Below, in pieces: positions 31,881-46,113 of a stretch of 64,000 bases of DNA (positions within the stretch are counted from its first letter, which is position 1; every line of letters starts with the position of its first letter). Origin of the DNA: Ruegeria sp. PrR005 (GTDB lineage: Bacteria > Pseudomonadota > Alphaproteobacteria > Rhodobacterales > Rhodobacteraceae); assembly GCF_010500245.1 (NCBI RefSeq), contig NZ_JAAGOX010000022.1, positions 310,001 to 374,000 on the forward strand, written 5' to 3'. The notes under the pieces are model-generated. The model was not told the DNA's origin, searched no databases, and was given only the letters and a program-made list of their open reading frames with translations. The translations under genes were made by a program, and so were the position numbers.

Positions 31881-32039
31881 CCTATGATTGCGAGGGCATC
31901 CTTGCTGCGTTTGAAAAGAATGGTGGGCGGGTCGCTGATTCCAGCCTGTCCAGAGGGGCATTAAACATGGCGCCAATCAAGTGATGAGCCAGATCGCATC
32001 CAAAATCACGCTGGCCTATTAGTGACGATCCAAAATGCA

Positions 32040-32053
32040 ATGGTACGCACCAT
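32040..32053. promoter_or_regulatory. Inverted repeat ATGGT-N4-ACCAT with downstream half-site
   Basis: ATGGTACGCACCAT at 32040-32053; the half TGGTACG recurs at 32067-32073 (26 bp period). TGGT/ACCA symmetry is reminiscent of GntR/FadR-type sites, but no such regulator is encoded nearby. Confidence 0.35.
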
Positions 32054-32133
32054 GTCGGAAGAAAAGTGGTACGATTCGATCAAGCTGTTTTTTGGCGGCG
32101 CCCGTCTGATCGGGGCCTTTTGAGAGGAGTGTA

Positions 32134-32145
32134 GCAATATATTGC
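32134..32145. promoter_or_regulatory. Box-type 12-mer operator a1
   Basis: GCAATATATTGC, a perfect palindrome 67 bp before the dctP ATG, one of eight related 12-mers (consensus GCAWTATWTTGC) confined to the benzoate block. Confidence 0.7.
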
Positions 32146-32162
32146 AAATATGAGATAAATGA

Positions 32163-32174
32163 GCATTATATTGC
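32163..32174. promoter_or_regulatory. Box-type 12-mer operator a2
   Basis: GCATTATATTGC, 29 bp after copy a1 (start to start), 27 bp before the dctP ATG. Confidence 0.7.
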
Positions 32175-32200
32175 TTAGAGAGGGTCAAAGGGAGGATAAC

Positions 32201-33259
32201 ATGACCTATCGGAGAAAGATTCTGGGTCTGATCGGTGGTGCTGCGGTTGCGGCTCTGGCGACCGGGTTCGGCGCCGGCACCGCGCTGGCGCAAGAGGTTA
32301 CGCTGAAGCTGCACCAGTTCCTGCCGGCGCAGGCCAATGTGCCGAAACTGGTGCTGGATGTCTGGGCGGACAATGTCGAGAAGGATTCGGGCGGCCGCAT
32401 CAAGGTCGAGCGCTATCCCTCGATGCAACTCGGCGGCAAGCCACCGGAGCTGATGGACCAGGCCATAGACGGTGTGGCGGATGTGGTCTGGACTGTGGTC
32501 GGCTATACGCCGGGCCGCTTCCCCTCGACCGAGGTGTTCGAACTACCCTTCATGATGACAAATGCCCGTGCGGTCAGCCGTGCCTATTGGGAGATGTTCG
32601 AAAAACACATGAAGGACACCGAGTTCAAGGATGTGCACATTCTTGGCACCTGGGTTCACGGACCCGGCATGATCCATACCAAGGATCCGGTGGAAAAACC
32701 CGAGGACCTGCAAGGCATGAAGATCCGCGGCGGTTCGCGGTCGGTCAACTCGCTGCTGACCAAACTAGGCGCGACCCCGGTCGGCATGCCGGTTCCCGCC
32801 GTTCCCGAAGGACTCAGCAAGGGTGTGATCGACGGCACCACTATTCCGTGGGAAGTCACCACTGCGCTCAAGGTTCCGGAATTGGTGGAGAACCACACCG
32901 AGTTCTCCGGAAAGGCGCTCTATACCCTGACTTTCGTTCTGGCGATGAACAAGGCCAAGTACGACAGCCTGCCGGATGATCTGAAAGCCGCTGTCGACAA
33001 GAACTCGGGTCTTGATTTCTCGGTGTTTGCGGGCGGCACACAGGCCGATTCCGATGGGCCAGCCCGCAAGGTTGCCGAAGACCTGGGCAACAACATCATC
33101 ACCATCGACGAGGCCGGGGTGGCCGAATGGCGCGCGCTGGCGCAGCCCATTTATGATGAGTGGGTCGCCGACATGAACAGCAAGGGCATCGACGGTCAGG
33201 CGCTGATCGACGAAGCGCAGATGCTGATCGAGAAGTACACACCGGATTACGCGAACTGA
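32201..33259 (+). CDS. dctP: TRAP transporter substrate-binding protein DctP
   Basis: 352 residues from ATG 32201 (GGGAGGA upstream). The signal peptide ends at ALAQ|EVTLKL; the DctP fold follows (LKLHQFLPAQANVPKLVLDVWADNVEK, PSTEVFELPFMM, GMKIRGGSRSVNSLLTKLGATPVGMPVP). The Arg in KIRGG is the conserved carboxylate-binding residue, so the ligand is an organic acid anion. The gene carries two copies of the box-type operator in its promoter and heads the block leading to benzoate activation, so benzoate or a related aromatic acid is a reasoned guess. Confidence 0.93.
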   Translation: MTYRRKILGLIGGAAVAALATGFGAGTALAQEVTLKLHQFLPAQANVPKLVLDVWADNVEKDSGGRIKVERYPSMQLGGKPPELMDQAIDGVADVVWTVVGYTPGRFPSTEVFELPFMMTNARAVSRAYWEMFEKHMKDTEFKDVHILGTWVHGPGMIHTKDPVEKPEDLQGMKIRGGSRSVNSLLTKLGATPVGMPVPAVPEGLSKGVIDGTTIPWEVTTALKVPELVENHTEFSGKALYTLTFVLAMNKAKYDSLPDDLKAAVDKNSGLDFSVFAGGTQADSDGPARKVAEDLGNNIITIDEAGVAEWRALAQPIYDEWVADMNSKGIDGQALIDEAQMLIEKYTPDYAN

Positions 33260-33273
33260 TCCGGAGAAGAACC

Positions 33274-33303
33274 GACCCCGCGGCACGCAACTGCTGCGGG
33301 GTC
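33274..33303 (+). terminator. Hairpin between dctP and dctQ
   Basis: GACCCCGC-G-GCA, 6-nt loop, TGC-T-GCGGGGTC: 11 Watson-Crick pairs plus one G-T, 15 bp after the dctP stop, followed by CCCTTTC. Likely a processing/attenuation element giving more binding protein than permease. Confidence 0.65.
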
Positions 33304-33331
33304 CCCTTTCGGCGAAAGACGAAAAGAACAG

Positions 33332-33916
33332 ATGCACAAGCTGATGATGGGGCTGGCCAAGGCCATGGCCATTTTGGGTGGGATCGTGCTCAGCGCCCTG
33401 ATCATGCTGACCTGCGTGTCCATTCTGGGCCGTCTGCTCAACGGTGCGTTTCACGGCAGTTTCATGACCGGGATCGCGCCGGAATTTTCTCACTGGATGA
33501 TCCAGCTGGGCGTGGGTCCGGTGAACGGCGATTTTGAACTTGTCGAGGCGGGGGTTGCCTTTGCGATCTTCTGCTTCCTGCCGTTCTGTCAGATTACCGC
33601 TGGCCATGCATCTGTCGACATCCTGACGAATTCTTTTTCGCAGGGCGTAAACCGGTTCTTGCGCATGGTCACCGAGACCGTGTTCGCCGCCGTCCTGATC
33701 CTGATCGCGTGGAAGCTGGGCGACGGGATGATCAGTAAACGAAGTTACGGCGAGACGACCCTGCTATTGGAATTCCCGATCTGGTGGGCCTATGCGCTGA
33801 GCTTTCTCGCCTCTCTAGCTGCGGCCGTGGTCGGCTGTTACATGGCTGGCGTGCGTTTTGTCGAGTTCTTCACCGGGCGCGTGATCGTCTGGGATGGTGT
33901 GGAGACAGGCCATTGA
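33332..33916 (+). CDS. dctQ: TRAP transporter small permease DctQ
   Basis: 194 residues, four hydrophobic segments (GIVLSALIMLTCVSILGRLL; FAIFCFLPFCQITAGHA; TVFAAVLILIAWKLG; WWAYALSFLASLAAAVVG), with the family's conserved F-C-Q-I-T-A-G-H-A-S-V-D segment. Scaffold for DctM. Its stop codon TGA overlaps the TTG start of dctM. Confidence 0.93.
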   Translation: MHKLMMGLAKAMAILGGIVLSALIMLTCVSILGRLLNGAFHGSFMTGIAPEFSHWMIQLGVGPVNGDFELVEAGVAFAIFCFLPFCQITAGHASVDILTNSFSQGVNRFLRMVTETVFAAVLILIAWKLGDGMISKRSYGETTLLLEFPIWWAYALSFLASLAAAVVGCYMAGVRFVEFFTGRVIVWDGVETGH

Positions 33917-35409
33917 CCACGCTTGAAATCGGGATCGCGTCGTTCCCTGCCCTGATGGTTCTGATCTTTCTGCGCGTGCCGATCGGGCTTGCCATGTTCC
34001 TTGTCGGCCTGATCGGGCTGGTGCTGGTGACCGACGGAACTCAGGTCGCTTTTGCCCGGTTGAAGAACGAGACCTATACGACCTTTTCCAGCTACTCGCT
34101 GACCATCGTGCCGATGTTCCTGCTGATGGGCCATTTCGCCACCCTTGGCGGTATGTCGAACGCCCTGTTCAAGGCGGCCGAAGGCTGGCTGGGCCACCGC
34201 AAGGGTGGTGTTGCCATGGCCGCTATTGGCGCCTGCGCGGGGTTTGGCGCGATCTGTGGATCGTCACTGGCCACTGCGGCCACCATGGGCCGTGTCGCCC
34301 TGCCAGAGTTGCGGCAGTATGGCTATGCCGGCGGGTTTTCTACCGCCACGCTGGCCGCGGGCGGTACGCTGGGCATCCTGATCCCGCCATCGGTAGTGCT
34401 GGTGATCTATGCCATTCTGACCGAACAGAACATTGCCAAGCTGTTTCTCGCGGCTTTCATTCCCGGCATCATGGCGGCGGTCGGCTACCTGATCGCTATC
34501 TCTGTCTACGTGCGGCTCTACCCCGAAAGCGCAGGCACCCGGCCACCGGTGCCCTATTCCGAACGGTTTGCTGCTTTGGTCCAGGTCTGGCCAGTTCTTC
34601 TGGTGTTTGGTCTCGTTGTCGGCGGTATCTACCTTGGCTGGTTCACACCAACTGAAGGTGCCGCCGTCGGAGCGCTGGGGACCGGCGTGATTGCTTGGCT
34701 GAACGGCGGCTTGACGCGGGCCTCGCTGACCGAAAGCTTTCTGGTGACAGCGCGTTCTACAGCGATGATCTTTTTCATCGTGCTGGGTGCGGCCTTTTAC
34801 AACGGGTTCCTTGCCCTGACCCAGGTGCCGCAGGAACTCTCGAACTTCGTGGTCAGTCAGGGATACAGCCCGTGGACGGTACTGGCGCTGATCCTCGTCT
34901 TCTATCTGGTGTTCGGCTGCCTGATGGACAGTCTCAGCATGATCCTGTTGACCATCCCGATCTTCTTTCCGGTGATATCCGCCATGGACTTCGACCTTGT
35001 GTCGCTGGCCGCCATGCAGGCCGACGCCGCGATGGAGGTTCTCAAGGCCGGCGTTCCCGACGGGATGAGCGCTGAGACCCTGGCAGGCATCAAGGATGCC
35101 ATCGCCAGCGGTGCCGAACTGACTCGCGACCAGATGAAGGAGTTGGGCATCCGCGTCACCCGTAGCATGGCCAACCGGATGGAGGCCGAGCACGTGGCGA
35201 TCTGGTTCGGCATTCTGGTGCTGATCGTGGTCGAAGTCGGACTGATCACGCCACCTGTCGGCATGAACCTGTTCATCATCAACGCGATGGATCGGGCGAC
35301 CCGTATGGTCGATACCTACAAGGCGGTAATGTTCTTTGTTGCGACGGACCTGATCCGTGTTGTCATTCTGGTCGCGTTTCCCGCGATCACACTGTTTCTG
35401 CTGGGATAG
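33913..35409 (+). CDS. dctM: TRAP transporter large permease DctM with a ~60-residue insertion
   Basis: 498 residues from a TTG start at 33913 that overlaps the dctQ stop (TTGA); ATG starts further in would remove the first helix. The DctM fold is clear (IGACAGFGAICGSSLATAATMGRVALPEL; GTLGILIPPSVVLVIYAILTEQNIAKLF; VEVGLITPPVGMNLFII). The family is usually 425-435 residues. Here residues ~362-430 hold a soluble, Ala/Glu/Met-rich segment (QADAAMEVLKAGVPDGMSAE onward) between the FDL and WFG elements that normally join directly. Ion-driven import of an organic acid. Confidence 0.93.
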   Translation: MTTLEIGIASFPALMVLIFLRVPIGLAMFLVGLIGLVLVTDGTQVAFARLKNETYTTFSSYSLTIVPMFLLMGHFATLGGMSNALFKAAEGWLGHRKGGVAMAAIGACAGFGAICGSSLATAATMGRVALPELRQYGYAGGFSTATLAAGGTLGILIPPSVVLVIYAILTEQNIAKLFLAAFIPGIMAAVGYLIAISVYVRLYPESAGTRPPVPYSERFAALVQVWPVLLVFGLVVGGIYLGWFTPTEGAAVGALGTGVIAWLNGGLTRASLTESFLVTARSTAMIFFIVLGAAFYNGFLALTQVPQELSNFVVSQGYSPWTVLALILVFYLVFGCLMDSLSMILLTIPIFFPVISAMDFDLVSLAAMQADAAMEVLKAGVPDGMSAETLAGIKDAIASGAELTRDQMKELGIRVTRSMANRMEAEHVAIWFGILVLIVVEVGLITPPVGMNLFIINAMDRATRMVDTYKAVMFFVATDLIRVVILVAFPAITLFLLG

Positions 35410-35478
35410 GTCAGGTCTGCCCCGGCTCTGCGCGACCGGCCTGACCGCAGGCCGCGACGCGGCATGTGGGAGGAGAAG

Positions 35479-37266
35479 ATGACGCATTACCTGGCGCATG
35501 ATGTCCGGCGCGAGGATCGCGCGGATGGCGCGGTCCTGCTGCGATCCGGGCATGAAGCAGTATCGCCTGACCGAAAGACTGCCGATTGGTTGCACCGCTG
35601 GGCCGGGCGCACGCCCGATGCTGTGTTTCTGGCAGAACGCAGCGGGGCGGGCTGGGCCGAGTTGCGCTATGACGCGGCGCTGGAGCGGGTTCGCGCCGTG
35701 GCGGCAGGTCTGCTGGCGCGTGGGCTGATGCCTGGGGATCGTATCCTGATCATCTCGGGCAACAGCGTCAATCATGGGGTTTTGGCACTTGCGGCGCAGT
35801 ATGTGGGTCTGGTGCCGGTCCCGGTGGCCGAACAGTATTCACTGATCCCCGGTGCACTGAAACAGCTACGCTATGTGATCGGGCTGATCGACCCGGCGAT
35901 GGTTTACGCCGAGGATGGTGCGCAGTTCGCAAATGCGCTGGCGATGGACGAGATAACAAGCCACCGGATCGTTGTCGGGCGAAATCCCGGGCCGAGTATG
36001 AGCCTTCTTGCCGATCTCGAACGCGAAACCGCCGATATTGATACCGCAGCCAAGGCCGTCGGCCCCGAGACGGTTGCCAAGATCCTGATGACCTCGGGCT
36101 CGACCTCGAACCCCAAGGGTGTACTGACCACGCAAAAGATGCTCTGCGCCAATCAGGCACAATACACCCGCGCCTTGCCGTTTCTGTCGGAACGTCCCCC
36201 GCGACTGGTTGATTGGCTGCCTTGGAATCACGTCTTTGGCGGATCGAATAATTTCAACCAGATGCTGGCTTTTGGCGGTGCGCTTTACATCGACGGGGGC
36301 AAGCCCGCCCCGGCCCTGATCGGCAAGACGTTTGAGAACAACCGCCTGATGAACGGCACCATCGCCTATAACGTACCGGTGGGTTTTGCCCAGCTGCGTG
36401 ACGAGATGCGTCGGGACCCTGCGTTGAAGCGCCATTTCTTTGCCGATCTCGACATGCTCTTCTATGCGGGCGCATCTCTGCCCGCGGATGTCTGGCGCGA
36501 CCTGAGCGATATGGCCGCCGAAGTGCGCGACACCCAGCCCCTGATCACCACCTGCTGGGGCATGACCGAAACCGCGCCCGCCTGTATCTTTCAGCACGTA
36601 CCGGCGAATCTGCCCGGTATCATCGGTGTGCCGCTGACCGGTGTGACGGCCAAGCTTGTTCCGGCAGATGGTGGCGGCCACGAGTTGCGTGTGCAGGGGC
36701 CCAACGTCTTCTCCGGCTATCTGGGCAACCCGGAAAAGACAGCCGAGGCCTTTGACGAAGAGGGTTTCTTTCGCACCGGCGACAAGGTTTCGCTGGTTGA
36801 CGCCGAGGATCCGAACAAGGGGCTTCGGTTCGACGGGCGGATCGCCGAGGAGTTCAAGTTGACTACCGGGATATGGGTGCCTGCCTCCGATCTGCGGCTA
36901 GAGGTTCTGGAGGCATTGGCCCCCTTGGCGGCGGATGTGGTCTTGACCGGCGAGGGACGTGGCGAGGTTGGCGCGATGATTGTTCCGTCGCCCGCGCTGG
37001 TGCAGGGCCTCGACGCGCGCGATGGCGCTTGTCTACCTGGGGAACAGGCTGAGGAGATCGCCAAGCGCCTGTCTCGTTTGAATGCGGGTCGTGGCAGCGC
37101 CACGACCGTTGCACGCGCCCTGATTCTCTCGGATCCGCCATCAATGGCCGATGGTGAGATCACAGCCAAAGGAAACCTGAATTTCCGCAAAATCTTGATG
37201 CTCCGGGCAGAACTGGTGACCCGATTGCACGAGAATCCGGACGAAACAGTCATTTTTGTGCATTAA
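35479..37266 (+). CDS. Feruloyl-CoA synthase-like acyl/aryl-CoA ligase
   Basis: 595 residues from ATG 35479 (GGGAGGAGAAG). Adenylate-forming enzyme: AMP-binding P-loop MTSGSTSNPKGVL, then WLPWNHVFGGSNNFN, YAGASLPADVWRDL and TCWGMTETAP; the C-terminal region carries GKGNLNFRKI-like catalytic Lys (AKGNLNFRKILML). Length and the PWNHVFG motif match the feruloyl-CoA synthase/Fcs group, which activates hydroxycinnamates to CoA thioesters. Lies 69 bp after dctM and so probably in the same transcript. The matching hydratase/lyase (Ech) is not here, so its true acid could differ. Confidence 0.85.
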   Translation: MTHYLAHDVRREDRADGAVLLRSGHEAVSPDRKTADWLHRWAGRTPDAVFLAERSGAGWAELRYDAALERVRAVAAGLLARGLMPGDRILIISGNSVNHGVLALAAQYVGLVPVPVAEQYSLIPGALKQLRYVIGLIDPAMVYAEDGAQFANALAMDEITSHRIVVGRNPGPSMSLLADLERETADIDTAAKAVGPETVAKILMTSGSTSNPKGVLTTQKMLCANQAQYTRALPFLSERPPRLVDWLPWNHVFGGSNNFNQMLAFGGALYIDGGKPAPALIGKTFENNRLMNGTIAYNVPVGFAQLRDEMRRDPALKRHFFADLDMLFYAGASLPADVWRDLSDMAAEVRDTQPLITTCWGMTETAPACIFQHVPANLPGIIGVPLTGVTAKLVPADGGGHELRVQGPNVFSGYLGNPEKTAEAFDEEGFFRTGDKVSLVDAEDPNKGLRFDGRIAEEFKLTTGIWVPASDLRLEVLEALAPLAADVVLTGEGRGEVGAMIVPSPALVQGLDARDGACLPGEQAEEIAKRLSRLNAGRGSATTVARALILSDPPSMADGEITAKGNLNFRKILMLRAELVTRLHENPDETVIFVH

Positions 37267-37271
37267 GATGC
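37260..37271. promoter_or_regulatory. Box-type 12-mer operator b1
   Basis: GCATTAAGATGC; it overlaps the last codon and stop (TAA at 37264-37266) of the feruloyl-CoA-synthase-like gene. A further related GCATAATTTTTGC follows at 37270-37282. Confidence 0.6.
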
Positions 37272-37293
37272 ATAATTTTTGCGAGATGAATAG

Positions 37294-37305
37294 GCAATAT
37301 CTTGC
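37294..37305. promoter_or_regulatory. Box-type 12-mer operator b2
   Basis: GCAATATCTTGC, 34 bp after b1 and 108 bp before the benzoate-CoA ligase ATG. Confidence 0.7.
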
Positions 37306-37412
37306 ATAAATGACTTTTGAATGCATGATGACTGTCTAAGAGGGAGGCGCGCGGGACCGTGGAGGAGAGCCGTCCGCGTGCGGCCCTGGGTATTCACCGG
37401 GAGGAGAACGGG

Positions 37413-38942
37413 ATGAGCGGAAACGCCGCGCATTACTTTGTGGATCGGCACATTGACGAAGGGCAGGGCGATCGTCCCGCCTTTCGCGAAGCCGCAGGGA
37501 AAAAGCGTCGGATCACTTATGGCGAGCTGGCCACGGAGAGCGGCCGTGTCGCGGGTGCCCTCGCCCGCGCCGGTATCCCGCGCGAGGCGCGCGCCGCGAT
37601 GCTGGTGTTGGACCAGGTGGAATTTCCGACTTTGTTCTGGGGGTGCCTGAAGGCGGGCGTGGTGCCGGTGCCGCTGAATACGTTGCTGGCGACCTCTGTC
37701 TACGATGTCATCCTGAACGATAGCCGGGCCAGCATTCTGTTCGTGTCCGAAGAGCTTTGGCCGGTGGTGCAAGCCGCTGCCGAGGCGTCTCCGTATCTGA
37801 CCAAGGTTGTGGTCATCGGTGCGGCGCCCGAGGGCACGCAGGGTTATGAGGATTTCGTGCGTGACGCCGATATCCTGCCCACGGTTCAAAGCTCGTCCGA
37901 CGATGTCGCCTTCTGGCTCTACTCCTCGGGGTCGACGGGGCAACCCAAAGGCGTTCGGCATGTGCATGGCAGCCTCAAGGCGACGGCGGATACTTACGGC
38001 GCGCAGGTGCTGGGAATCGAGGCTGACGATGTGGTGTTCTCTGCGGCCAAACTGTTCTTTGCCTATGGGCTGGGCAATGGCATGACCTTTCCCATGTCGG
38101 TCGGGGCAGAGACGATCCTGTTCAACGGGCGCCCGACGCCAGACGGGGTGCGCGACATCATCGCCGCCGAAAAACCTACAGTTTTCTGCGGTGTCCCGAC
38201 ACTTTATGCCGCGATGGTTGCCATGCTCGACCGCGAGGGCGTGCCGGACGTGACGCTCCGCCGCTGCATCTCGGCAGGTGAGGCGCTGCCGGAAGAGATC
38301 GGGCGGTCGTGGCACCGGCAATGGGGCGTCGACATTCTGGATGGCGTCGGCTCGACCGAGATGCTGCATATCTTTCTGTCGAACGCGCCGGGCGATGTGG
38401 TTTATGGCACCTCGGGTCGCGCCGTGCCAGGTTATGAGGTGCGGCTGGTGGACGAAAGCGGCGCAAATGTCGGGCCCGGTGGCCTTGGCGAACTGCTGGT
38501 GCGTGGTGCCTCGGCGGCGGACGGCTATTGGAACAAGCGCGACAAGAGCCGCGCCACGTTCGAGGGCGAGTGGACCCGCACGGGCGACAAATACGAACTG
38601 ACACCCGAAGGCCGCTATATCTATTGCGGGCGTACCGACGACATGTTCAAGGTTTCGGGCATCTGGCTGTCGCCGTTTGAGGTGGAGCAGGCGTTGGTCG
38701 CGCATCCGGCCGTCCTCGAAGCGGCGGTGGTGGCGGCCCGCGATGCCGACGGGCTGGAAAAGCCAAAGGCCTTTATCGTACTCAAGGCGGCAGAGACCGA
38801 AGGGCTGGCCGATACGTTGCGTGATTTCGTCAAGGAGAAGGTGGGCAAGTGGAAATACCCCCGCTGGATCGAGTTCGTTGACGACCTGCCCAAGACCGCC
38901 ACGGGCAAGATCCAGCGATTCAAGCTGCGCCATGAGGGGTGA
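37413..38942 (+). CDS. Benzoate-CoA ligase
   Basis: 509 residues from ATG 37413 (GGGAGGAG). Adenylate-forming ligase: P-loop YSSGSTGQPKG at residues 170-180, A5 motif DGVGSTEMLH, A8 hinge YCGRTDDMFKVSG, and catalytic C-terminal Lys in KTATGKIQRFKLR. The benzoate-specific block FFAYGLGNGMTFPMSVGAE near 215-235 is typical of BadA/BclA-type enzymes. Makes benzoyl-CoA, the substrate of BoxAB. Has its own operator-bearing promoter; the hydrolase and DUF309 genes follow with 3-bp gaps. Confidence 0.92.
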   Translation: MSGNAAHYFVDRHIDEGQGDRPAFREAAGKKRRITYGELATESGRVAGALARAGIPREARAAMLVLDQVEFPTLFWGCLKAGVVPVPLNTLLATSVYDVILNDSRASILFVSEELWPVVQAAAEASPYLTKVVVIGAAPEGTQGYEDFVRDADILPTVQSSSDDVAFWLYSSGSTGQPKGVRHVHGSLKATADTYGAQVLGIEADDVVFSAAKLFFAYGLGNGMTFPMSVGAETILFNGRPTPDGVRDIIAAEKPTVFCGVPTLYAAMVAMLDREGVPDVTLRRCISAGEALPEEIGRSWHRQWGVDILDGVGSTEMLHIFLSNAPGDVVYGTSGRAVPGYEVRLVDESGANVGPGGLGELLVRGASAADGYWNKRDKSRATFEGEWTRTGDKYELTPEGRYIYCGRTDDMFKVSGIWLSPFEVEQALVAHPAVLEAAVVAARDADGLEKPKAFIVLKAAETEGLADTLRDFVKEKVGKWKYPRWIEFVDDLPKTATGKIQRFKLRHEG

Positions 38943-38945
38943 GAG

Positions 38946-39761
38946 ATGGAATGGAGTTCTGCGCCAACCGAAAAGCTGCGCGTCAACGGCGCGGCGCTGG
39001 AATACGCCTGTTACGGCCCGGCACCGTCCGAGGCGCCGACAATTGTCCTGTTGCACGAGGGATTGGGCTGTACTGCCCTGTGGCGGGATTTTCCAAGTCG
39101 GCTTGCCGAACGCACGGGGCTTGGCGTGCTTGTCTATTCGCGTCAGGGCTATGGCAAGTCCGATCCGATATCCTTGCCGCGACCGTTGGACTTTCAGACG
39201 CGCGAGGCGTTGGATGTCCTGCCAAGGGTTCTGGACGTTACGGGCGTCGATCGCGCCATTCTCTTTGGGCATTCCGACGGGGCGACAATAGCGGCGATCT
39301 ATGCCGGTAGCGTCGAGGACCGGCGCGTGCGCGGTCTGATCCTTGAGGCGCCGCATTTCTTTACCGAACCGAGCGGGCTGGCTTCGATTGCGGCCGCGCG
39401 CGAGGCATATGAGAGCGTCGATCTGAAAGCGAAGATGGCCAAGTACCATCTTGACCCTGACGGAGCCTTCAAGGGTTGGAATGGCGCCTGGTTGGATCCG
39501 GGTTTTGCCGCATGGAACGTGGCTGAGGTGATCGACTATATCCGGGTTCCAATACTGGCCATTCAGGGGCGGCAGGACCAATACGGCACCATGGCGCAGA
39601 TCGAAGAGATCGAAAACCGCGCTTACTGCCCGGTCGATACGCTGATCCTCGATTGCGAGCATGCGCCGCATCAGGAGTCCCCGGAACCGGTACTGGATGC
39701 GGTGGGCGAGTATTGTGCCCGGCTGATCCGTATTGAGGCCGCCCAGGTCATTCCCGCCTGA
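38946..39761 (+). CDS. Alpha/beta hydrolase of the box cluster
   Basis: 271 residues, starts 4 nt after the ligase stop. Catalytic triad: nucleophile Ser in GHSDG, acid Asp in GRQDQYG, and His in HAPHQESPE near the C-terminus; oxyanion strand LLHEGLGCTALW. The family includes thioesterases and C-C hydrolases. It is often found with box genes, where a thioesterase releasing CoA from stalled intermediates is one suggestion; there is no direct proof here. Confidence 0.88.
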   Translation: MEWSSAPTEKLRVNGAALEYACYGPAPSEAPTIVLLHEGLGCTALWRDFPSRLAERTGLGVLVYSRQGYGKSDPISLPRPLDFQTREALDVLPRVLDVTGVDRAILFGHSDGATIAAIYAGSVEDRRVRGLILEAPHFFTEPSGLASIAAAREAYESVDLKAKMAKYHLDPDGAFKGWNGAWLDPGFAAWNVAEVIDYIRVPILAIQGRQDQYGTMAQIEEIENRAYCPVDTLILDCEHAPHQESPEPVLDAVGEYCARLIRIEAAQVIPA

Positions 39762-39764
39762 GCT

Positions 39765-40202
39765 ATGGCGTTGTGTCTGTCATATCCGGCTTATGTCCCC
39801 GGTCGGACAGCTCGCCCGCCTGAGGACACGTTTCTCGATTTGCGCAAAAGCGTAACGGCGGGAATGATGGAGGAAGAATTGGCCGCCAGCCCAGCCTGGA
39901 GGGCGGGTTGGCAATTCTACGGCGCGGGCTACTTCTGGGAGGCGCATGAAGTCTGGGAACCCGTCTGGATGCAGTTGCCGCCGAATTCCGCCGCGCGTCA
40001 TATTGCGCAGGCGGCAATTCAACTGGCGAATGCAGAGCTCAAGATTAGGATGGAGCGCACCCGGGCTGCACGGCGTCTATGTGCTCTGGTCCGGGAACAT
40101 GCCGGCAGGACCGGGGGAGAACGGGTGATGGGGCTGTGTTCTGACGATCTGGTGGCGCTCGTCGAAAAGGTAGAAAATCGACTCACGAGTAATGCAAAAT
40201 AA
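39765..40202 (+). CDS. DUF309 family protein
   Basis: 145 residues. The DUF309 helical core is clear: WQFYGAGYFWEAHEVWEPVWMQLP followed by RHIAQAAIQLANAELKIRM; the G-Y-x-x-E-A-H-E-x-W-E-x-x-W pattern could hold a metal or small ligand. Biochemical role unknown. Closely linked to benzoate-CoA ligase and hydrolase in one transcript. Its last codons (GCA AAA TAA) lie inside box-type operator c1. Confidence 0.85.
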   Translation: MALCLSYPAYVPGRTARPPEDTFLDLRKSVTAGMMEEELAASPAWRAGWQFYGAGYFWEAHEVWEPVWMQLPPNSAARHIAQAAIQLANAELKIRMERTRAARRLCALVREHAGRTGGERVMGLCSDDLVALVEKVENRLTSNAK

Positions 40203-40205
40203 TGC
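40194..40205. promoter_or_regulatory. Box-type 12-mer operator c1
   Basis: GCAAAATAATGC, overlapping the stop codon of the DUF309 gene, followed at once by GCATAAAATGC; 154 bp before the boxC ATG (end to start). Confidence 0.6.
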
Positions 40206-40278
40206 ATAAAATGCCTGCTCTGCTATGAGATACTTTGGCTTTTCGCGTAAGACATTGATATTAATAAAAACAAAATAT

Positions 40279-40290
40279 GCATTATTTTGC
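40279..40290. promoter_or_regulatory. Box-type 12-mer operator c2
   Basis: GCATTATTTTGC followed by TCAAA in an AT-rich stretch (40240-40300) that likely contains the boxC promoter. Confidence 0.7.
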
Positions 40291-40318
40291 TCAAAACCTA
40301 TTGCCAAAGCGCATGTGA

Positions 40319-40330
40319 GCATTAAAATGC
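40319..40330. promoter_or_regulatory. Box-type 12-mer operator c3
   Basis: GCATTAAAATGC, 28 bp before the boxC ATG; a position likely to block transcription when occupied. Confidence 0.7.
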
Positions 40331-40358
40331 ACCTCAACCTCAAGTTTTGGAGTCTAAC

Positions 40359-42020
40359 ATGACCCACCGTATCGACTTTCAAACCGATCCCTCCCGCTAT
40401 CGCCATTGGCGCGTGGAGTACGAGGGCGAGATCGCCAATCTCTACATGGATGTGGATGAGCAGGGTGGGTTGTTCCCGGGATATGAGCTGAAGCTCAACT
40501 CTTATGACCTCGGGGTCGACATTGAGCTTGCCGATGTTGTCCAGCGGATGCGGTTTGAGCATCCCGAGGTCAAGGTGGTGGTCATGCAATCGGCCAAGGA
40601 CCGCGTGTTCTGCGCCGGTGCCAATATCCGCATGCTTGGGGGCGCTAGTCACGCGCACAAGGTCAATTTCTGCAAGTTCACCAACGAAACGCGAAACACG
40701 TTCGAGGCCGCCGAGGCCGACAGCGGCCAGAAATACATCGCCGCAGTCAAGGGCGCCTGCGCGGGTGGCGGGTACGAACTGGCGCTGGCCTGCAACTATA
40801 TCATGCTTACCAATGACAGCTCTTCTTCGGTGGCCTTGCCCGAGGTTCCGCTGCTTGCCGTGCTGCCGGGCACTGGCGGACTGACCCGTGTCACGGACAA
40901 GCGCAAGGTGCGTCGCGATCTGGCCGATGTGTTCTGCTCGGTCGAAGAAGGTGTGAAGGGCCAGCGCGCCGTAGATTGGCGGCTGGTGGACGAGATCGCG
41001 CCGAATTCGAAATTCGACGAGGTCGTGCAGGAACGCGCCCGCGAATTCGCCGCAGCCAGCGCCAAGCCTACTGGTCTGACGGGGATCGAACTTACGCCGC
41101 TCGACCGCCGCTTTGACGAGGATGGATCGGTCACCTATTCCACAGTTGAAGTCGCAATCGATCGCGCAGGAGGTAGGGCAACGCTGACCATCACAGGCCC
41201 ATCCGATCCGGCTCCGGCCTCGGTGGCGGAATTGCAGGAGCAGGGGGCGCAAGCATGGATCCTGCGTGCCGCCCGCGAACTGGACGACGCCATCCTGCAT
41301 CTACGCCTGAATGAACGCCAGATCGGCACCCTGGTGTTCAAGACGCAAGGCGACCCGACTGCGGTTCTGGCGCATGAGTCGCTTTTGCTAGCCAACCGTG
41401 ACAACTGGCTGGCCAACGAAATCCTGCACTATTGGAAGCGCGTCCTGAAGCGTGTGGACATGACCTCGCGAAGCCTGGTCGCCATCGTCGAGCATGGCTC
41501 TTGCTTTGCCGGGCCCTTGGCGGAACTGCTCTGGGCCGTGGATCGGTCCTATATGATGCTGGACGAGTTCGAAGGCGACAATCGCCCGCTTGCGACGGTC
41601 ACTCTGAGTGAAGGAAATTTCGGCCCCTACCCGATGGGGAACGACCTGACGCGTTTGCAGACCCGGTTCCTGGGTACTCCGGAAACCGTCGATACCCTGC
41701 GTGGCCATGTCGGCGAGGCGCTGGAAGCCTCTGAAGCCGAACAACTGGGTCTGGTGACCTATGCTTATGACGATATCGACTGGGAGGATGAAGTGCGCAT
41801 CTTCCTGGAAGAGCGCGCGAGTTTCTCGCCCGATGCGATGACGGGGATGGAGGCTAACCTTCGGTTTGCCGGTCCCGAAACGATGGAAACACGCATCTTT
41901 GGCCGCCTGACTGCCTGGCAGAACTGGATCTTCCAGCGCCCGAACGCGGTCGGTCCGGATGGTGCGCTGCAACGCTACGGCACCGGGGTGCGTGGCGACT
42001 ACAACATGGAACGTGTCTGA
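40359..42020 (+). CDS. boxC: 2,3-epoxybenzoyl-CoA dihydrolase BoxC
   Basis: 553 residues, full BoxC length, from ATG 40359 (TTTGGAG site). Two crotonase-type modules: in the first, KDRVFCAGANIRMLGG and CAGGGYELALACNYIM form the oxyanion hole and CoA pocket; the second lies around residues 340-440 (SLVAIVEHGSCFAGPLAELL). Opens the non-aromatic 2,3-epoxide of benzoyl-CoA, releasing formate and yielding 3,4-dehydroadipyl-CoA semialdehyde. Heads the boxC-boxB-boxA transcript with three operator copies in its promoter. Confidence 0.95.
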   Translation: MTHRIDFQTDPSRYRHWRVEYEGEIANLYMDVDEQGGLFPGYELKLNSYDLGVDIELADVVQRMRFEHPEVKVVVMQSAKDRVFCAGANIRMLGGASHAHKVNFCKFTNETRNTFEAAEADSGQKYIAAVKGACAGGGYELALACNYIMLTNDSSSSVALPEVPLLAVLPGTGGLTRVTDKRKVRRDLADVFCSVEEGVKGQRAVDWRLVDEIAPNSKFDEVVQERAREFAAASAKPTGLTGIELTPLDRRFDEDGSVTYSTVEVAIDRAGGRATLTITGPSDPAPASVAELQEQGAQAWILRAARELDDAILHLRLNERQIGTLVFKTQGDPTAVLAHESLLLANRDNWLANEILHYWKRVLKRVDMTSRSLVAIVEHGSCFAGPLAELLWAVDRSYMMLDEFEGDNRPLATVTLSEGNFGPYPMGNDLTRLQTRFLGTPETVDTLRGHVGEALEASEAEQLGLVTYAYDDIDWEDEVRIFLEERASFSPDAMTGMEANLRFAGPETMETRIFGRLTAWQNWIFQRPNAVGPDGALQRYGTGVRGDYNMERV

Positions 42021-42029
42021 GGAGGGAAG

Positions 42030-42052
42030 CAGATTTTTCGCTGAAAAATCTG
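42030..42052 (+). other. AT-rich hairpin 1 between boxC and boxB
   Basis: CAGATTTTTC-GCT-GAAAAATCTG: perfect 10-bp stem, 3-nt loop, 9 bp after the boxC stop. Its arms can also pair with hairpin 2. Confidence 0.8.
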
Positions 42053-42054
42053 TT

Positions 42055-42077
42055 GAAAAATCTTTGCAAGATTTTTC
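42055..42077 (+). other. AT-rich hairpin 2 just before the boxB ribosome site
   Basis: GAAAAATCTT-TGC-AAGATTTTTC: perfect 10-bp stem, 3-nt loop, ending 5 nt before the boxB site AAGGAGGAA. Shares the arm AGATTTTTC with hairpin 1, giving mutually exclusive pairings. Confidence 0.8.
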
Positions 42078-42094
42078 CCGCAAGGAGGAAAGCA

Positions 42095-43546
42095 ATGCTC
42101 GACCTGATCAACGTAAGCTACGACACCCAGATCCCCAACAACGTGGGGCTGAGCCAGGACAAGAAAGTGCTGAAGGCGCTGGAGAAATGGCACCCCGGCT
42201 ATATCAACTGGTGGAACGACCTGATCCCGCAGAATTTCCAGCAAAGCATGGTGTATCTGCGCACCGCCGTTTCGGTGGACCCGAAAGGCTGGGCCAAGTT
42301 CGACTATGTGAAGATGCCCGAATACCGTTGGGGCGTGCTGCTGGCGCCGCAGGTTGAAAACCGCACAATTCCCTGTGGAGAGCACTACGGGCAACCTGCC
42401 TGGCAGGAAGTGCCGGGTGAGTACCGCAATCTGCTCAAGCGGCTGATCGTGATCCAGGGCGATACAGAGCCGGCCTCGGTCGAACAGCAGCGCTTGCTGG
42501 CGCTGACCGCGCCTTCGCTCTATGACATGCGCAACCTGTTCCAGGTGAACGTCGAAGAGGGCCGCCACCTCTGGGCGATGGTCTATCTGCTGCACAAGTA
42601 CTTTGGCCGTGATGGGCGCGAAGAGGCCGATGACCTGTTGCGCCGCCAGTCGGGCAGCGAAGAGGCCCCGCGGATGCTGGGCGCCTTCAACGAGGAAACG
42701 CCGGACTGGCTCTCGTTCTTCATGTTCACCTATTTCACCGACCGCGACGGCAAGATGCAGTTGGAAAGCCTGGCGCAGTCGGGTTTCGATCCGCTCAGCC
42801 GCACCTGCCGCTTCATGCTGACCGAGGAAGCACACCACATGTTCGTGGGTGAAACCGGCGTCGGCCGCACTATCGAGCGGACCTGCCAGGTGATGAAAGA
42901 GAACGGGATCGACGATCCGTTCGATGTGGACCGTATCCGTGGCCTCGGCGTGATCGACCTGCCGCTGATCCAGAAGAAGCTCAATCTGCATTACACGCTG
43001 TCGCTGGATCTCTTCGGTCAGGAAGTTTCGACCAACGCCGCAAACGCATTCAACGCCGGTATCAAGGGCCGCTACATGGAGGCGCGCATCACCGACGATC
43101 ACCAGTTGCAAAGCGATACCTACGTGGTCTGGGATCTGGTCGACGGCAAGGCAGTGCAAAAGGAAGTACCTGCCCTTACCGCGATCAACATGCGCCTGCG
43201 GGATGATTACACAAAGGACGCCGCGGGTGGCGTCGGCCGCTGGAACAAGATCATCGAGAAATACGGCATCGACTTTGAATTTAAGCTGCCGCACGAAGCG
43301 TTCCATCGCAAGATCGGCGTCTTTGCCAACCTTCCTTTCGATCCCGAAGGCAAGGTTGTGACCGGGGCCGAGTATGACAAAGGCCTGCCCGAGTGGCTGC
43401 CGACCCACGCCGATGGCGACTATATCCAGTCGCTGATGAAGCCGTGCTACGAAGCTGGCCAATATGCTCGCTGGATCGCCCCGCCGAAGGTCGGCATCGA
43501 CAACAAGCCGGGCGATTTCGAGTATGTGAAGCTTCACATGGCCTGA
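42095..43546 (+). CDS. boxB: Benzoyl-CoA 2,3-epoxidase subunit BoxB
   Basis: 483 residues from ATG 42095, preceded by a strong AAGGAGGAA. Diiron oxygenase: ligands by family alignment are Glu125, Glu155 and His158 (VNVEEGRHLWAM), Asp216 (FTDRDGK), Glu245 and His248 (TEEAHHMF), all at +5 relative to the Azoarcus enzyme. Uses electrons from BoxA and O2 to epoxidise benzoyl-CoA. Cotranscribed with boxC through a hairpin-bearing gap. Confidence 0.96.
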   Translation: MLDLINVSYDTQIPNNVGLSQDKKVLKALEKWHPGYINWWNDLIPQNFQQSMVYLRTAVSVDPKGWAKFDYVKMPEYRWGVLLAPQVENRTIPCGEHYGQPAWQEVPGEYRNLLKRLIVIQGDTEPASVEQQRLLALTAPSLYDMRNLFQVNVEEGRHLWAMVYLLHKYFGRDGREEADDLLRRQSGSEEAPRMLGAFNEETPDWLSFFMFTYFTDRDGKMQLESLAQSGFDPLSRTCRFMLTEEAHHMFVGETGVGRTIERTCQVMKENGIDDPFDVDRIRGLGVIDLPLIQKKLNLHYTLSLDLFGQEVSTNAANAFNAGIKGRYMEARITDDHQLQSDTYVVWDLVDGKAVQKEVPALTAINMRLRDDYTKDAAGGVGRWNKIIEKYGIDFEFKLPHEAFHRKIGVFANLPFDPEGKVVTGAEYDKGLPEWLPTHADGDYIQSLMKPCYEAGQYARWIAPPKVGIDNKPGDFEYVKLHMA

Positions 43547-43666
43547 GTTGAATCACAGGCGGGAACCGTGGGCGGAAACAATTTGTGACCCGCCCGCGGA
43601 TTGACGGACAGGGGTATTCTCCTGTTCGCTGATCCCAGCCTGATCGGAAAATGCGAGGACCCGACC

Positions 43667-43843
43667 ATGCAGATTGACCGTTCGAAATCCGATACCCCAC
43701 GCCTTCAGGCGCTGGCCGGCCAGATATCTGCATTGCAAGGTCCGTGTGTTGGGTGCTCTGACTGTGTGGGTCTGTGCAAGGCGCTGATCGATACGCTGAT
43801 CGTTCCCGACATCGTTCTGACCAGGAAACAAGAGACCCCATGA
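43667..43843 (+). CDS. 58-residue cysteine-motif protein coupled to boxA
   Basis: Starts MQIDRSKSDT at ATG 43667 (GAGGAC upstream) and ends 4 bp into boxA (ATGA). Carries Cys27-x2-Cys30-x2-Cys33-x3-Cys37 (PCVGCSDCVGLCKAL), the spacing of a [4Fe-4S] ferredoxin motif without the usual Pro after the last Cys, followed by a helical tail. Could hold a cluster or zinc and act as electron carrier or assembly factor for BoxAB. A longer in-frame start at 43601 exists but lacks a good ribosome site. Function not known. Confidence 0.7.
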   Translation: MQIDRSKSDTPRLQALAGQISALQGPCVGCSDCVGLCKALIDTLIVPDIVLTRKQETP

Positions 43844-45024
43844 CACAGCCGATCAAGCAGCACCTGATCGACCCCGAAATCTGTATCCGCTGCTATACAT
43901 GTGAAATGACCTGTCCCGAGCAGGCCATCGAACATGACGACATGAATGTCGTCGTGGACGTGGACAAGTGCAAATTCTGCATGGATTGCATTCCGGTCTG
44001 TCCGACGGGATCCATCGACAACTGGCGCGTGGTGGCCGAGCCATATTCGTTGGAAGACCAATATGCCTGGACGGATTTGCCCGCTCAGGAAGATGTGGCG
44101 GGTGACGATGCCGGGCTCGAGGCTCTGGACGACGCGGTCGCGGCGCTCTTGGCCGAGGCTCACAAGGGGGTCGGTGGCAAGTCACGCGCACCCGCCACGG
44201 CGGCCAAACCGACAATCAATCTCTATACGCTGGGCAAACCTGCCGAAGCGCGGGTGACCGGGAATTTCCGCCTGACTGCCGAAGGCAGTGACAGCGATGT
44301 GCGTCACATCATCCTGGATTTTGGCGGACAGCCTTTTCCCGTGCTCGAAGGTCAAAGCATCGGGATCATTCCACCCGGAACAGATGCCGAAGGCAAAGCG
44401 CATCTGCCGCGACTGTACTCGGTTTCAAGCCCCCGAGATGGCGAAAGACCCAATTTCAACAACCTCTCGCTGACGGTCAAACGCGAACCACATGGCGTGT
44501 GCTCGAACTTTGTCTGCGATCTGACACCGGGCGATACCGTGCGGGTGACCGGCCCGTTTGGTGCGACCTTCCTGATGCCATCGGATCCGAATGCGCATTT
44601 GCTGATGATCTGCACCGGAACCGGTTCGGCCCCCTTCCGCGCTTTCACCATGCGGCGGCAACGGGAGAACCCCAAGCTCAAGGACTCCCTGACCCTCGTT
44701 TTCGGCGCTCGCCGGCAACAGGAGTTGCCCTATTTCGGCCCATTGGGAAAGGTGCCAGAGAGCTTCATGGCCAAGCATTTTGCTTTTTCCCGGCAGGATG
44801 GAGAGCCCAAGCACTATGTGCAGGACAAGCTGCGCGCCGAGGCAGACCGCATTGGCCAGTTGCTGCTGGATCCGTCGACCCATATCTATGTCTGCGGTCT
44901 GAAGGCGATGGAGCAGGGCGTGGAAGAAGCGCTAAAGGACATCGCGCGGGCACGGGGCATTGTCTGGACCGAATTGCGCGACCAGATGCGCGACCAGGGA
45001 CGTTTCCATGTGGAGACCTACTAA
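43840..45024 (+). CDS. boxA: Benzoyl-CoA 2,3-epoxidase reductase subunit BoxA
   Basis: 394 residues from ATG 43840. Two [4Fe-4S] motifs at the N-terminus (Cys15, 18, 21, 25 and Cys44, 47, 50, 54, each ending Cys-Pro), a short linker, then a ferredoxin-NADP reductase module: FAD-binding RLYSVSSPRDGE and GVCSNFVCDL, NADPH-binding ICTGTGSAPFRAFTMRR, VFGARRQQELPYF, and IYVCGLKAMEQGVEEAL near the end. Passes electrons from NADPH to BoxB. Last structural box gene before boxR. Confidence 0.95.
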   Translation: MTQPIKQHLIDPEICIRCYTCEMTCPEQAIEHDDMNVVVDVDKCKFCMDCIPVCPTGSIDNWRVVAEPYSLEDQYAWTDLPAQEDVAGDDAGLEALDDAVAALLAEAHKGVGGKSRAPATAAKPTINLYTLGKPAEARVTGNFRLTAEGSDSDVRHIILDFGGQPFPVLEGQSIGIIPPGTDAEGKAHLPRLYSVSSPRDGERPNFNNLSLTVKREPHGVCSNFVCDLTPGDTVRVTGPFGATFLMPSDPNAHLLMICTGTGSAPFRAFTMRRQRENPKLKDSLTLVFGARRQQELPYFGPLGKVPESFMAKHFAFSRQDGEPKHYVQDKLRAEADRIGQLLLDPSTHIYVCGLKAMEQGVEEALKDIARARGIVWTELRDQMRDQGRFHVETY

Positions 45025-45091
45025 GGGCCTGCTCTGGGGCCATCTGCTTGCGGATTGGATTGCACCCGTGGGCCTCCTGCCGTAGTATTGC

Positions 45092-45103
45092 GCAATATTT
45101 TGC
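45092..45103. promoter_or_regulatory. Box-type 12-mer operator d
   Basis: GCAATATTTTGC, 17 bp before the boxR ATG, overlapping a perfect palindrome TATTGCGCAATA (45086-45097). Suggests autoregulation of boxR. Confidence 0.7.
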
Positions 45104-45120
45104 ACAAAGCTGCAGGTAGC

Positions 45121-46038
45121 ATGACCGAGATAACCAATTTCCGCGGCGAAACGGCGTCAAACGGACCGGCAGAAAGTGCAGAAGCCCAGGTTTCGGCCCT
45201 GATCGCCAGGGTTGGGGACCGGGTTCGGGCCGCCCGGCAGCGGCGGGGAATCCCACGGCGTGTTCTGTCCGAGGCCTCCGGCGTCTCGCCGCGCTATCTG
45301 GCGCAACTCGAAGCGGGCGAAGGGAATATCTCGATCGGTCTCTTGCTGCGTGTTGCAATAGCGCTTGATCACCGGATCGAATGGCTTGTGGGCCAGGATG
45401 ATCCGTGGACCTCCGAAGCGCTGCGCGTCGCTGACCTGTATCGGGTTGCCAAATCCGACGTGCAACAGGCTGTCCTGCGCGCGCTCAGTCCTGAACCGGC
45501 CGAGGCGATCCGGGCCCAACGGATCTGCCTCGTTGGTCTGCGCGGCGCGGGAAAGTCCACTCTTGGGGTCCGATTGGGGGCCGAGTACGGTTTGCCCTTT
45601 GTGGAGCTTAATGACGAGATCGAGGAACAGGCCGGCATGCCTGTGGGCGAAGTCATGGCGCTCTACGGTCAGGAAGGATACCGCAAGCTCGAAGCGCAGG
45701 CGGTCAGTCGGGTCGTGGCCAAACACGAGGCGATGGTTCTGGCCGTGGCGGGCGGCATCGTTGCCGAGCCCGAAACCTACAACATGCTCTTGACCCATTT
45801 CCACACGATCTGGCTGCGCGCCGACCCTGAGGAGCACATGGAACGGGTCCGCGCCCAGGGAGACGAGCGCCCGATGGCTGGAAACCCCGAGGCGATGGAG
45901 CAGCTGAAATCCATCCTTGCCAGCCGCGAAATCCTCTACGGCAAGGCACTGGCCCAACTCGATACATCGGGTCAGTCCGTCGAAACATCTCTTACGCAAC
46001 TAAAGGCATTGGTAAACGACCGCGGCTACCTTGGATAG
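45121..46038 (+). CDS. boxR: BoxR-type regulator: XRE helix-turn-helix fused to shikimate kinase-like domain
   Basis: 305 residues from ATG 45121. HTH at about residues 28-90 (RVRAARQRRGIPRRVLSEASGVSPRYLAQLEAGEGNISI), linker, then a shikimate-kinase-like domain with P-loop GLRGAGKS at 139-146 and FVELNDEIEEQAG in the shikimate-binding position. BoxR/BzdR proteins bind benzoyl-CoA through this domain and release their TGCA-type operators. The likely operator set in this window is the eight 12-mers listed. Directly downstream of boxA, with its own site in front. Confidence 0.94.
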   Translation: MTEITNFRGETASNGPAESAEAQVSALIARVGDRVRAARQRRGIPRRVLSEASGVSPRYLAQLEAGEGNISIGLLLRVAIALDHRIEWLVGQDDPWTSEALRVADLYRVAKSDVQQAVLRALSPEPAEAIRAQRICLVGLRGAGKSTLGVRLGAEYGLPFVELNDEIEEQAGMPVGEVMALYGQEGYRKLEAQAVSRVVAKHEAMVLAVAGGIVAEPETYNMLLTHFHTIWLRADPEEHMERVRAQGDERPMAGNPEAMEQLKSILASREILYGKALAQLDTSGQSVETSLTQLKALVNDRGYLG

Positions 46039-46061
46039 GTCCTGGCAGGCAGCCGGTTCAT

Positions 46062-46085
46062 GCTTCTTTCTGGTTGGAAATACTC
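46062..46085. repeat. Short intergenic repeat copy 2
   Basis: GCTTCTTTCTGGTTGGAAATACTC, matching the copy at 22961-22984 except for three bases. It is followed immediately by G-rich sequence and a hairpin, and sits between convergent genes. Confidence 0.6.
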
Positions 46086-46093
46086 CTGGGGGT

Positions 46094-46113
46094 CTGGGGG
46101 GCTGGCCCCCCAG
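46094..46113. terminator. Hairpin between convergent boxR and ycaQ-like gene
   Basis: CTGGGGGG-CTGG-CCCCCCAG, 8-bp stem with a 4-nt loop, in the 84-bp gap between the two stop codons. No T-tract; likely a bidirectional transcription barrier. Confidence 0.6.

Follow-up and report, generated by a model that had tools for sequence, protein, structure and literature searches.

Predicted BoxR operators at four promoters of a box gene block that includes a TRAP transporter unit in Ruegeria sp. PrR005

Which regulator reads the AT-rich palindromes that recur in the promoter gaps of the benzoate (box) gene block of Ruegeria sp. PrR005, and how far does its control reach? The block lies in a 64-kb stretch of contig NZ_JAAGOX010000022.1 (G000:C22:310001-374000), here called the window, of a genome of 5,069,803 bases in 57 contigs. 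A preliminary description of this DNA had listed eight 12-mers and named the BoxR-like protein encoded at the end of the block as their simplest binder. Judged from sequence comparisons, the eight palindromes are very probably (at a probability of about 0.92) operators of the BoxR protein encoded at 45121-46038, which would repress a four-promoter block that includes a tripartite ATP-independent periplasmic (TRAP) transporter unit. All eight 12-mers were verified, letters as well as coordinates; they are given here without strand, each with its weight-matrix score.

32134..32145, predicted BoxR operator in the dctP promoter, upstream member of a pair; 22.0 bits; the 29-bp pair also occurs in relatives
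32163..32174, predicted BoxR operator in the dctP promoter; 19.9 bits; its end lies 29 nt before the ATG at 32204
37260..37271, predicted BoxR operator in the benzoate-CoA ligase promoter; 18.2 bits; overlaps the stop codon of the ligase-like gene
37294..37305, predicted BoxR operator in the benzoate-CoA ligase promoter; 18.1 bits
40194..40205, predicted BoxR operator in the boxC promoter, distal; 23.6 bits; overlaps the stop of the DUF309 gene
40279..40290, predicted BoxR operator in the boxC promoter, middle; 20.9 bits
40319..40330, predicted BoxR operator in the boxC promoter, proximal; 19.7 bits; lies over the candidate -10
45092..45103, predicted BoxR operator at boxR, over the expected start site; 20.2 bits

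The consensus first proposed for these sites, GCAWTATWTTGC, is too narrow. Five of the eight match it exactly on either strand, the site at 37294 has one mismatch, that at 40319 two and that at 37260 more than two, and with up to two mismatches the consensus finds 23 matches in the window (both strands; mean 8.95 and maximum 19 in 100 shuffles). They are better described as [T]GCA-N6-TGC[A] around an AT-rich centre: TGCA-N6-TGCA occurs in full at 37259 and 40193, and the other six sites lack the outer T or A on one or both sides. There are two copies in the dctP promoter, two in the ligase promoter, three in the boxC promoter and one at boxR. Within promoters the starts are 29, 34, 85 and 40 bp apart, or about 2.8, 3.2, 8.1 and 3.8 helical turns, two of the four falling within 3-5 turns. 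A weak second GCA-N6-TGC unit at 45102-45113 (TGCACAAAGCTGCA with flanks) shares its end with the operator at 45092, giving a tandem site before boxR; it scores 9.6 bits with the main matrix and 13.8 bits with the other-class matrix (both described below), where it ranks ninth in the window.

This form is known from BoxR and BzdR. According to PMC6449761 and PMC6678401, these proteins bind TGCA repeats, mainly as TGCA-N6-TGCA with the consensus ATGCACTATAGTGCAT and nearly always in multiple copies, so the TGCA link that the preliminary description had drawn was correct. The operator copies stand several helical turns apart, mainly 3-5 (PMC6449761). In the bzd promoter OR2 and OR3 are TGCA-N6-TGCA, and benzoyl-CoA releases BzdR from the promoter (PMC6449761; PMC6678401); multi-dimer complexes are described for BzdR (PMC6678401). 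The motif in the window has this known form with a T/A-rich centre, which makes BoxR the leading candidate binder by a wide margin. BoxR is also the only protein of the NF006015 family over cut-off in the genome, and its gene adjoins boxCBA and the CoA ligase, all of which score over their family cut-offs (TIGR03222/03225/03224/02262).

We built a 14-column matrix (the main matrix) from 236 promoter sites in the best 80 of 139 related boxR loci, with the window left out, and used it at a cut-off of 12 bits. BLAST matches starting late in the query and promoters truncated by a contig end were dropped before counting, and an identity floor of 38% was set for matrix counts and of 45% for counts with the A/T-rich-centre rule; denominators are what remained. 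Applied to the window, the main matrix finds the eight sites and no more, with scores of 18.1-23.6 bits, and the reversed window yields nothing; the runner-up, at 16273 with 11.2 bits, apparently lies inside a coding sequence. Since some of the training loci are very close relatives (BoxR 99% at L024), two further matrices were built. One, the other-class matrix, used boxR and boxC promoters only, 30 promoters from 16 loci in families outside the window's class. These training promoters hold 51 GCA-N6-TGC and 0 of the reversed form, and the matrix ranks the eight sites first to eighth in the 64-kb window at 16.1-20.7 bits, with a best reversed-window score of 9.5. The other matrix, from Rhodobacteraceae-type boxC promoters only, places the same eight on top.

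Comparison of orthologous promoters in the 80 loci shows that the sites are conserved in the promoter gaps and absent from the internal gaps. Sites of at least 12 bits stand within 300 bp upstream of boxC in 71/71, boxR in 71/80, the ligase in 50/67 and dctP in 5/6 cases, and none is found upstream of the feruloyl-CoA-synthase (FCS)-like gene (0/8), boxB (0/70), boxA (0/77), the hydrolase (0/62), DUF309 (0/57), dctM (0/11) or dctQ (0/8); with the matrix reversed there are 2 matches, against 378 forward. A stricter count, of GCA-N6-TGC with five or six A/T required in the centre, yields 66/71 for boxC, 28/80 for boxR, 47/68 for the ligase and 7/8 for dctP. Among the 17 ligase promoters without a site within 300 bp, 16 have one or more about 450-610 bp upstream, so that 66/67 have a site within 1 kb and the ligase of L070 is the sole case with none in that range. 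In at least 10 of these 16 loci (L040, L046, L047, L058, L059, L075, L082, L083, L090 and L096) the site precedes a short open reading frame ahead of the benzoate-CoA ligase; in L075 this frame encodes PnbB (PF16155, one run), a family already reported in BoxR regulons (PMC6449761).

Other samples were counted as well. A separate set of 16 loci has sites at boxC in 8/9, boxR in 6/9, the ligase in 5/6 and dctP in 2/3 cases, and a phylum-wide sample of 32 loci has them at boxC in 19/23 and boxR in 18/32. The Ruegeria pomeroyi locus L030 has such sites, too. Two genomes carry boxR far from the box genes with sites at both places: in G120 (L106/L107) boxR stands beside TRAP genes with the box genes about 1 Mb off, and in G172 (L110/L111) the two are on different contigs of a draft. 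With predicted sites kept at the orthologous promoters, the proposed four-promoter regulon of TRAP unit, ligase unit, boxCBA and boxR stands, and benzoate as the TRAP cargo is not required by it. Elsewhere, L116 (G345:C2:172000-190000) encodes a BoxR over cut-off in a genome with neither a BoxB match nor a close DctP, and its sole site, 116 bp upstream of the matched boxR start, is weak at 11.8 bits. BoxR-type sites also precede a Rieske oxygenase-like gene in L157 (6391) and L159 (16056), in one genus outside the family (the Pfam run was on the L157 copy).

Across the 5.07-Mb genome, GCA-W6-TGC occurs nine times, six in the 13-kb block and three elsewhere, and its reversed pattern twice; the rest of the window holds none. 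The sites at 37260 and 37294 are not among the nine because their centre has one G or C. From the three outside matches about 0.008 would be predicted per 13 kb. One (C4:84826, L001) falls where two open reading frames apparently converge, in the gap between them, another (C32:12120, L008) inside an open reading frame, and the third (C43:281793, L009) upstream of a gene that is prpE-like by reading, not by search. There, positions 1440-1520 of L009 (G000:C43) hold TTTGCA repeats and one TGCAAAAATTTGCA site before the prpE-like gene; the repeats resemble what we take to be a PccR/ScfR-type motif rather than a BoxR target, and DNA similar to the stretch is present in 5/5 genus genomes, counted at the level of the stretch. 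Allowing one mismatch, the genome scan gives at least 100 matches against 53 in the reversed control and was not used as evidence, and TGCA-N6-TGCA without the centre rule occurs 37 times against 13 reversed, with mostly GC-rich centres. In a sample of 395 family genomes, the mean number of GCAWWATWWTGC matches is 3.41 for the 86 with BoxR and 1.77 for the 309 without it (p = 2.9e-10, only a guide given the shared ancestry of the genomes). Both BoxR and BoxB are encoded in 85 genomes; 1 has BoxR only, and 2 fragmented ones (G086, G344) have BoxB only.

How firmly does the TRAP unit belong to this regulon? DctP was searched in 80 of the 86 BoxR-positive and 80 of the 309 BoxR-negative genomes of the family, and orthologues of at least 70% identity were found in 61/80 and 7/80, respectively. 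From matches at this level we hand-picked 20 linked and 13 unlinked dctP loci of BoxR-positive genomes, an incomplete set that leaves out, for example, G114 (70%, on a contig other than that of boxR) and most second copies; the 7 BoxR-negative loci are every such match in the 80 genomes searched. Of the linked loci 19/20, of the unlinked ones 7/13 and of the BoxR-negative ones 0/7 have an operator in the 350 bp before dctP, and these counts are unchanged with the boxC-promoter-only matrix, which was never trained on dctP promoters. The unlinked loci alone (7/13 against 0/7, p = 0.02) make a modest case by themselves. Linkage was judged on draft contigs, and L191, counted among the 13 unlinked loci, lies on a short contig with a ligase and is possibly linked. 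The operator pair spaced by exactly 29 bp is found in the window, in 9/20 linked and in 2/13 unlinked loci. In six loci (L190, L193, L198, L200, L217 and L106) two or three dctP-like genes stand in tandem before one dctQM, and L190 has the operator pair between its two dctP-like genes.

We infer that dctPQM is a true member of the BoxR regulon in many Rhodobacteraceae, where it would take the place that ABC (ATP-binding cassette) importers hold elsewhere. Most described betaproteobacterial BoxR regulons include ABC importers (PMC6449761). Strong BoxR-type sites also precede ABC-type periplasmic binding proteins (PF13458) in L086 (11018), L113 (776) and L170 (9534). The distribution suggests that the importer class changes while the operator stays. 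Taken together, the known operator form, its conservation in orthologous gaps, its higher frequency in BoxR-positive genomes and its absence from all 7 BoxR-negative dctP loci support BoxR as the probable binder.

The genes of the block are as follows.

32204..33259, plus strand, dctP-type TRAP solute-binding protein (NF037995, 104.7 bits, cut-off 50)
33332..33916, plus strand, dctQ-like TRAP small membrane subunit, between dctP and dctM and kept in relatives
33913..35409 (start approximate), plus strand, dctM-like TRAP large membrane subunit, an open reading frame named by position and conservation only
35479..37266, plus strand, AMP-binding ligase, feruloyl-CoA-synthase-like (PF00501)
37413..38942, plus strand, benzoate-CoA ligase (TIGR02262, 717 bits, cut-off 375); the frame opens with GTG at 37359, and ATG at 37413 is the likely start
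38946..39761, plus strand, alpha/beta hydrolase, candidate 3-hydroxyadipyl-CoA lactonase (PF00561)
39765..40202, plus strand, DUF309 protein (PF03745)
40359..42020, plus strand, boxC, 2,3-epoxybenzoyl-CoA dihydrolase (TIGR03222, 953 bits, cut-off 712)
42095..43546, plus strand, boxB, benzoyl-CoA 2,3-epoxidase subunit (TIGR03225, 922 bits, cut-off 499)
43840..45024, plus strand, boxA, benzoyl-CoA 2,3-epoxidase subunit (TIGR03224, 535 bits, cut-off 459)
45121..46038, plus strand, boxR, XRE-type helix-turn-helix and shikimate-kinase-like domain (NF006015, 388 bits, cut-off 204)

Both BoxR domains score over cut-off, PF01381 for the N-terminal helix-turn-helix and PF01202 for the C-terminal shikimate-kinase-like part. 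The dctQ-like protein has no NCBIfam match. The ligase-like protein of 35479..37266 reaches 578 bits with NF009232, under the curated cut-off of 777, and is hence called 'like' only; feruloyl-CoA synthase is presumably the name of its group, and a PDB sequence search gave no match at 1e-20. Its gene is probably the last of the TRAP unit. The hydrolase is named a candidate lactonase by analogy with the BoxR regulons of PMC6449761. Relatives, too, often have a DUF309 gene between the hydrolase gene and boxC. Among the best 80 of 139 loci, the nearest related one found is that of Ruegeria sp. XHP0148.

Two candidate promoters can be placed against the predicted operators.

40301..40328, plus strand, candidate boxC promoter TTGCCA-N16-TAAAAT, with the -10 inside the proximal operator 40319-40330 and 36 nt before the ATG
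45060..45088, plus strand, candidate boxR promoter TTGCAC-N17-TAGTAT, read by eye, with the -10 starting 38 nt before the ATG

Among the relatives' promoters, the best promoter-like match scores higher than in single-base shuffles at boxC (5.70 against 4.94, n=71) and at boxR (5.35 against 4.71, n=80), and its -10 most often starts 36-38 nt ahead of boxC and 36-37 nt ahead of boxR. In relatives, ligase, boxB and hydrolase show neither a score excess nor a preferred -10 position, and boxA has one frequent -10 position (30 nt, 24/77) without a clear score excess. A dctP promoter TTGCAA-N19-TATATT across the operator pair was considered and set aside as speculation only; its spacer is long and the promoter scan did not call it. 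Because the operators overlap the candidate boxC -10 and the expected boxR start, they are well placed for a block of boxC and for autorepression of boxR.

In the mechanism that we propose, BoxR dimers would occupy one to three operators per promoter when no aromatic acid is present, and would thereby block RNA polymerase. The block would be most direct at boxC, whose candidate -10 falls inside the proximal operator, and the operator over the expected start site would let BoxR repress its own gene; the extra upstream operators would match the multi-dimer complexes of BzdR. Once some aryl-CoA forms, benzoyl-CoA would bind BoxR, probably at the shikimate-kinase-like domain, and BoxR would leave the DNA. 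Release by benzoyl-CoA is carried over by analogy from the described BoxR/BzdR proteins. Import (dctPQM), CoA activation (benzoate-CoA ligase and the ligase-like gene) and ring epoxidation and cleavage (boxCBA) would then be induced jointly.

Several observations weigh against this account. A sigma-70-like scan of 32000-46100 called one promoter, at boxC, where shuffles average 4.4, and called none at dctP, the ligase or boxR; moreover, AT-rich operators themselves favour promoter-like matches. Because the scan is so weak (1 against 4.4 shuffled), occlusion rests on position and conservation. Sites are missing before boxR in 9/80 loci, and in more distant families the ligase promoter has a site within 300 bp in only 3/24 cases (phylum-wide sample). 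The distant boxR locus of G125 has no site at 12 bits, although its box cluster has sites. At dctP, 6/13 unlinked loci and 1/20 linked ones lack a site, and the six unlinked are real, unexplained exceptions. The association of GCAWWATWWTGC with BoxR is loose, with at least one match in 59% of the BoxR-negative genomes and none in 9% of the BoxR-positive ones. Since BoxR and BoxB co-occur almost perfectly and the two genomes with BoxB only are fragmented, box genes without BoxR are unusable as a control, and p-values overstate independence because the counted genomes are related.

Could the palindromes be chance, or generic promoter or terminator sequence in a GC-rich genome? One of the three matches outside the block (L001) does lie between two apparently converging open reading frames, but 2 reversed-matrix matches stand against 378 in the 80 loci, and both the placement and the 29-bp spacing are conserved; given also that six of nine genomic matches fall in the block and given the reversed controls, we reject a chance origin, which has next to no probability. 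That another regulator binds the sites in place of BoxR, whether an XRE acyl-CoA protein of the ScfR/PccR type or some other local one, is highly improbable. Regulators of the ScfR/PccR kind read TTTGCAAA, and TTGCAA is contained in some of the sites; in addition, a TGCA-N6-TGCA with an all-AT centre outside the block (C43:281792) stands before the prpE-like gene among TTTGCA repeats, presumably the PccR pattern. Against this, a matrix from the boxR and boxC promoters of another class recovers the eight sites, sites accompany boxR in 71/80 loci, including some where boxR stands apart from the box genes, and 7/7 BoxR-negative loci have none before dctP.

A more serious alternative leaves BoxR in place and changes the cargo only, and our confidence in it overlaps with that in the BoxR reading: the TRAP and ligase-like unit would serve not benzoate but phenylpropanoids, acids of the cinnamate type, which are shortened to give benzoyl-CoA. 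We consider this somewhat doubtful, with a sizeable chance of being right. The closest solved chain to DctP in a PDB sequence search is 7nr2/7nra (552 bits), presumably the phenylpropanoid-binding TarP homologue of Sagittula stellata. The product of the ligase-like gene is similar to NF009232, below cut-off, and TarPQM of Rhodopseudomonas palustris imports coumarate- and ferulate-type acids (PMC3610893). However, DctP tracks BoxR (61/80 against 7/80) and BoxB is present in 85/86 BoxR-positive genomes, so that benzoate fits at least equally, and several loci have TRAP genes without an adjoining ligase-like gene. The cargo of the TRAP unit may be phenylpropanoids rather than benzoate, or it may be benzoate. 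In either case BoxR is the predicted repressor of the four promoters.

The block has relatives among described systems. It resembles the BoxR/BzdR regulons of Betaproteobacteria and Azoarcus in having an XRE repressor with a shikimate-kinase-like domain and multiple TGCA-N6-TGCA, and in the targets boxCBA, CoA ligase, lactonase-like hydrolase, boxR and a transporter (PMC6449761; PMC6678401). It differs in three respects: the centre of the operator, which has C/G in the published betaproteobacterial consensus (TGCACTATAGTGCA) and favours T/A here (about TGCA-W-TATA-W-TGCA in the matrix from relatives), the position adjoining TGCA being A or T more often than C/G; the importer, which is TRAP here and of the ABC or BenK type there; and the layout, with one direction and four promoters here and a divergent cluster there. 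Like TarPQM of R. palustris, the unit would be an aromatic-acid-type TRAP importer under the regulator of the pathway that it feeds, but the regulator there is CouR, a MarR-type protein that responds to p-coumaroyl-CoA and has the coumarate pathway in its regulon, whereas here it would be BoxR (PMC3610893). The MbdR regulon of Azoarcus sp. CIB likewise has an aryl-CoA-relieved repressor acting at several promoters, including that of the ligase and its own; unlike BoxR here, MbdR is TetR-type and has ATAC-N10-GTAT operators (PMC4424350). Among the open-access papers listed in our searches we recognised none on a BoxR-controlled TRAP system or a Rhodobacteraceae operator set; 'TRAP' is absent from the main text of PMC6449761, and the accessible part of PMC12442348 does not mention BoxR. 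The kind of repressor, the form of its operator and the box targets were described before, and as far as those listed papers show, the BoxR-controlled TRAP unit and the Rhodobacteraceae operator set had not been.

We tentatively suggest, as an idea that we would not yet bet on, that BoxR of Rhodobacteraceae is more than a benzoate switch: with a TarP-like TRAP importer and an FCS-like ligase under its control, it would govern the entry and CoA activation of phenylpropanoids that feed into benzoyl-CoA, with the importer class (TRAP or ABC) swapped by clade and the operator constant. If so, benzoyl-CoA, a downstream product, would let in aromatics of plant and algal origin that lie upstream of it. 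The predicted sites would extend the BoxR operator code to a large family of mostly marine bacteria and tie an aromatic-type TRAP importer to the benzoyl-CoA signal, so that aromatic-acid uptake could be predicted from operator sequence. The four-promoter regulon and the apparent clade-dependent importer swap under one repressor are directly testable predictions.

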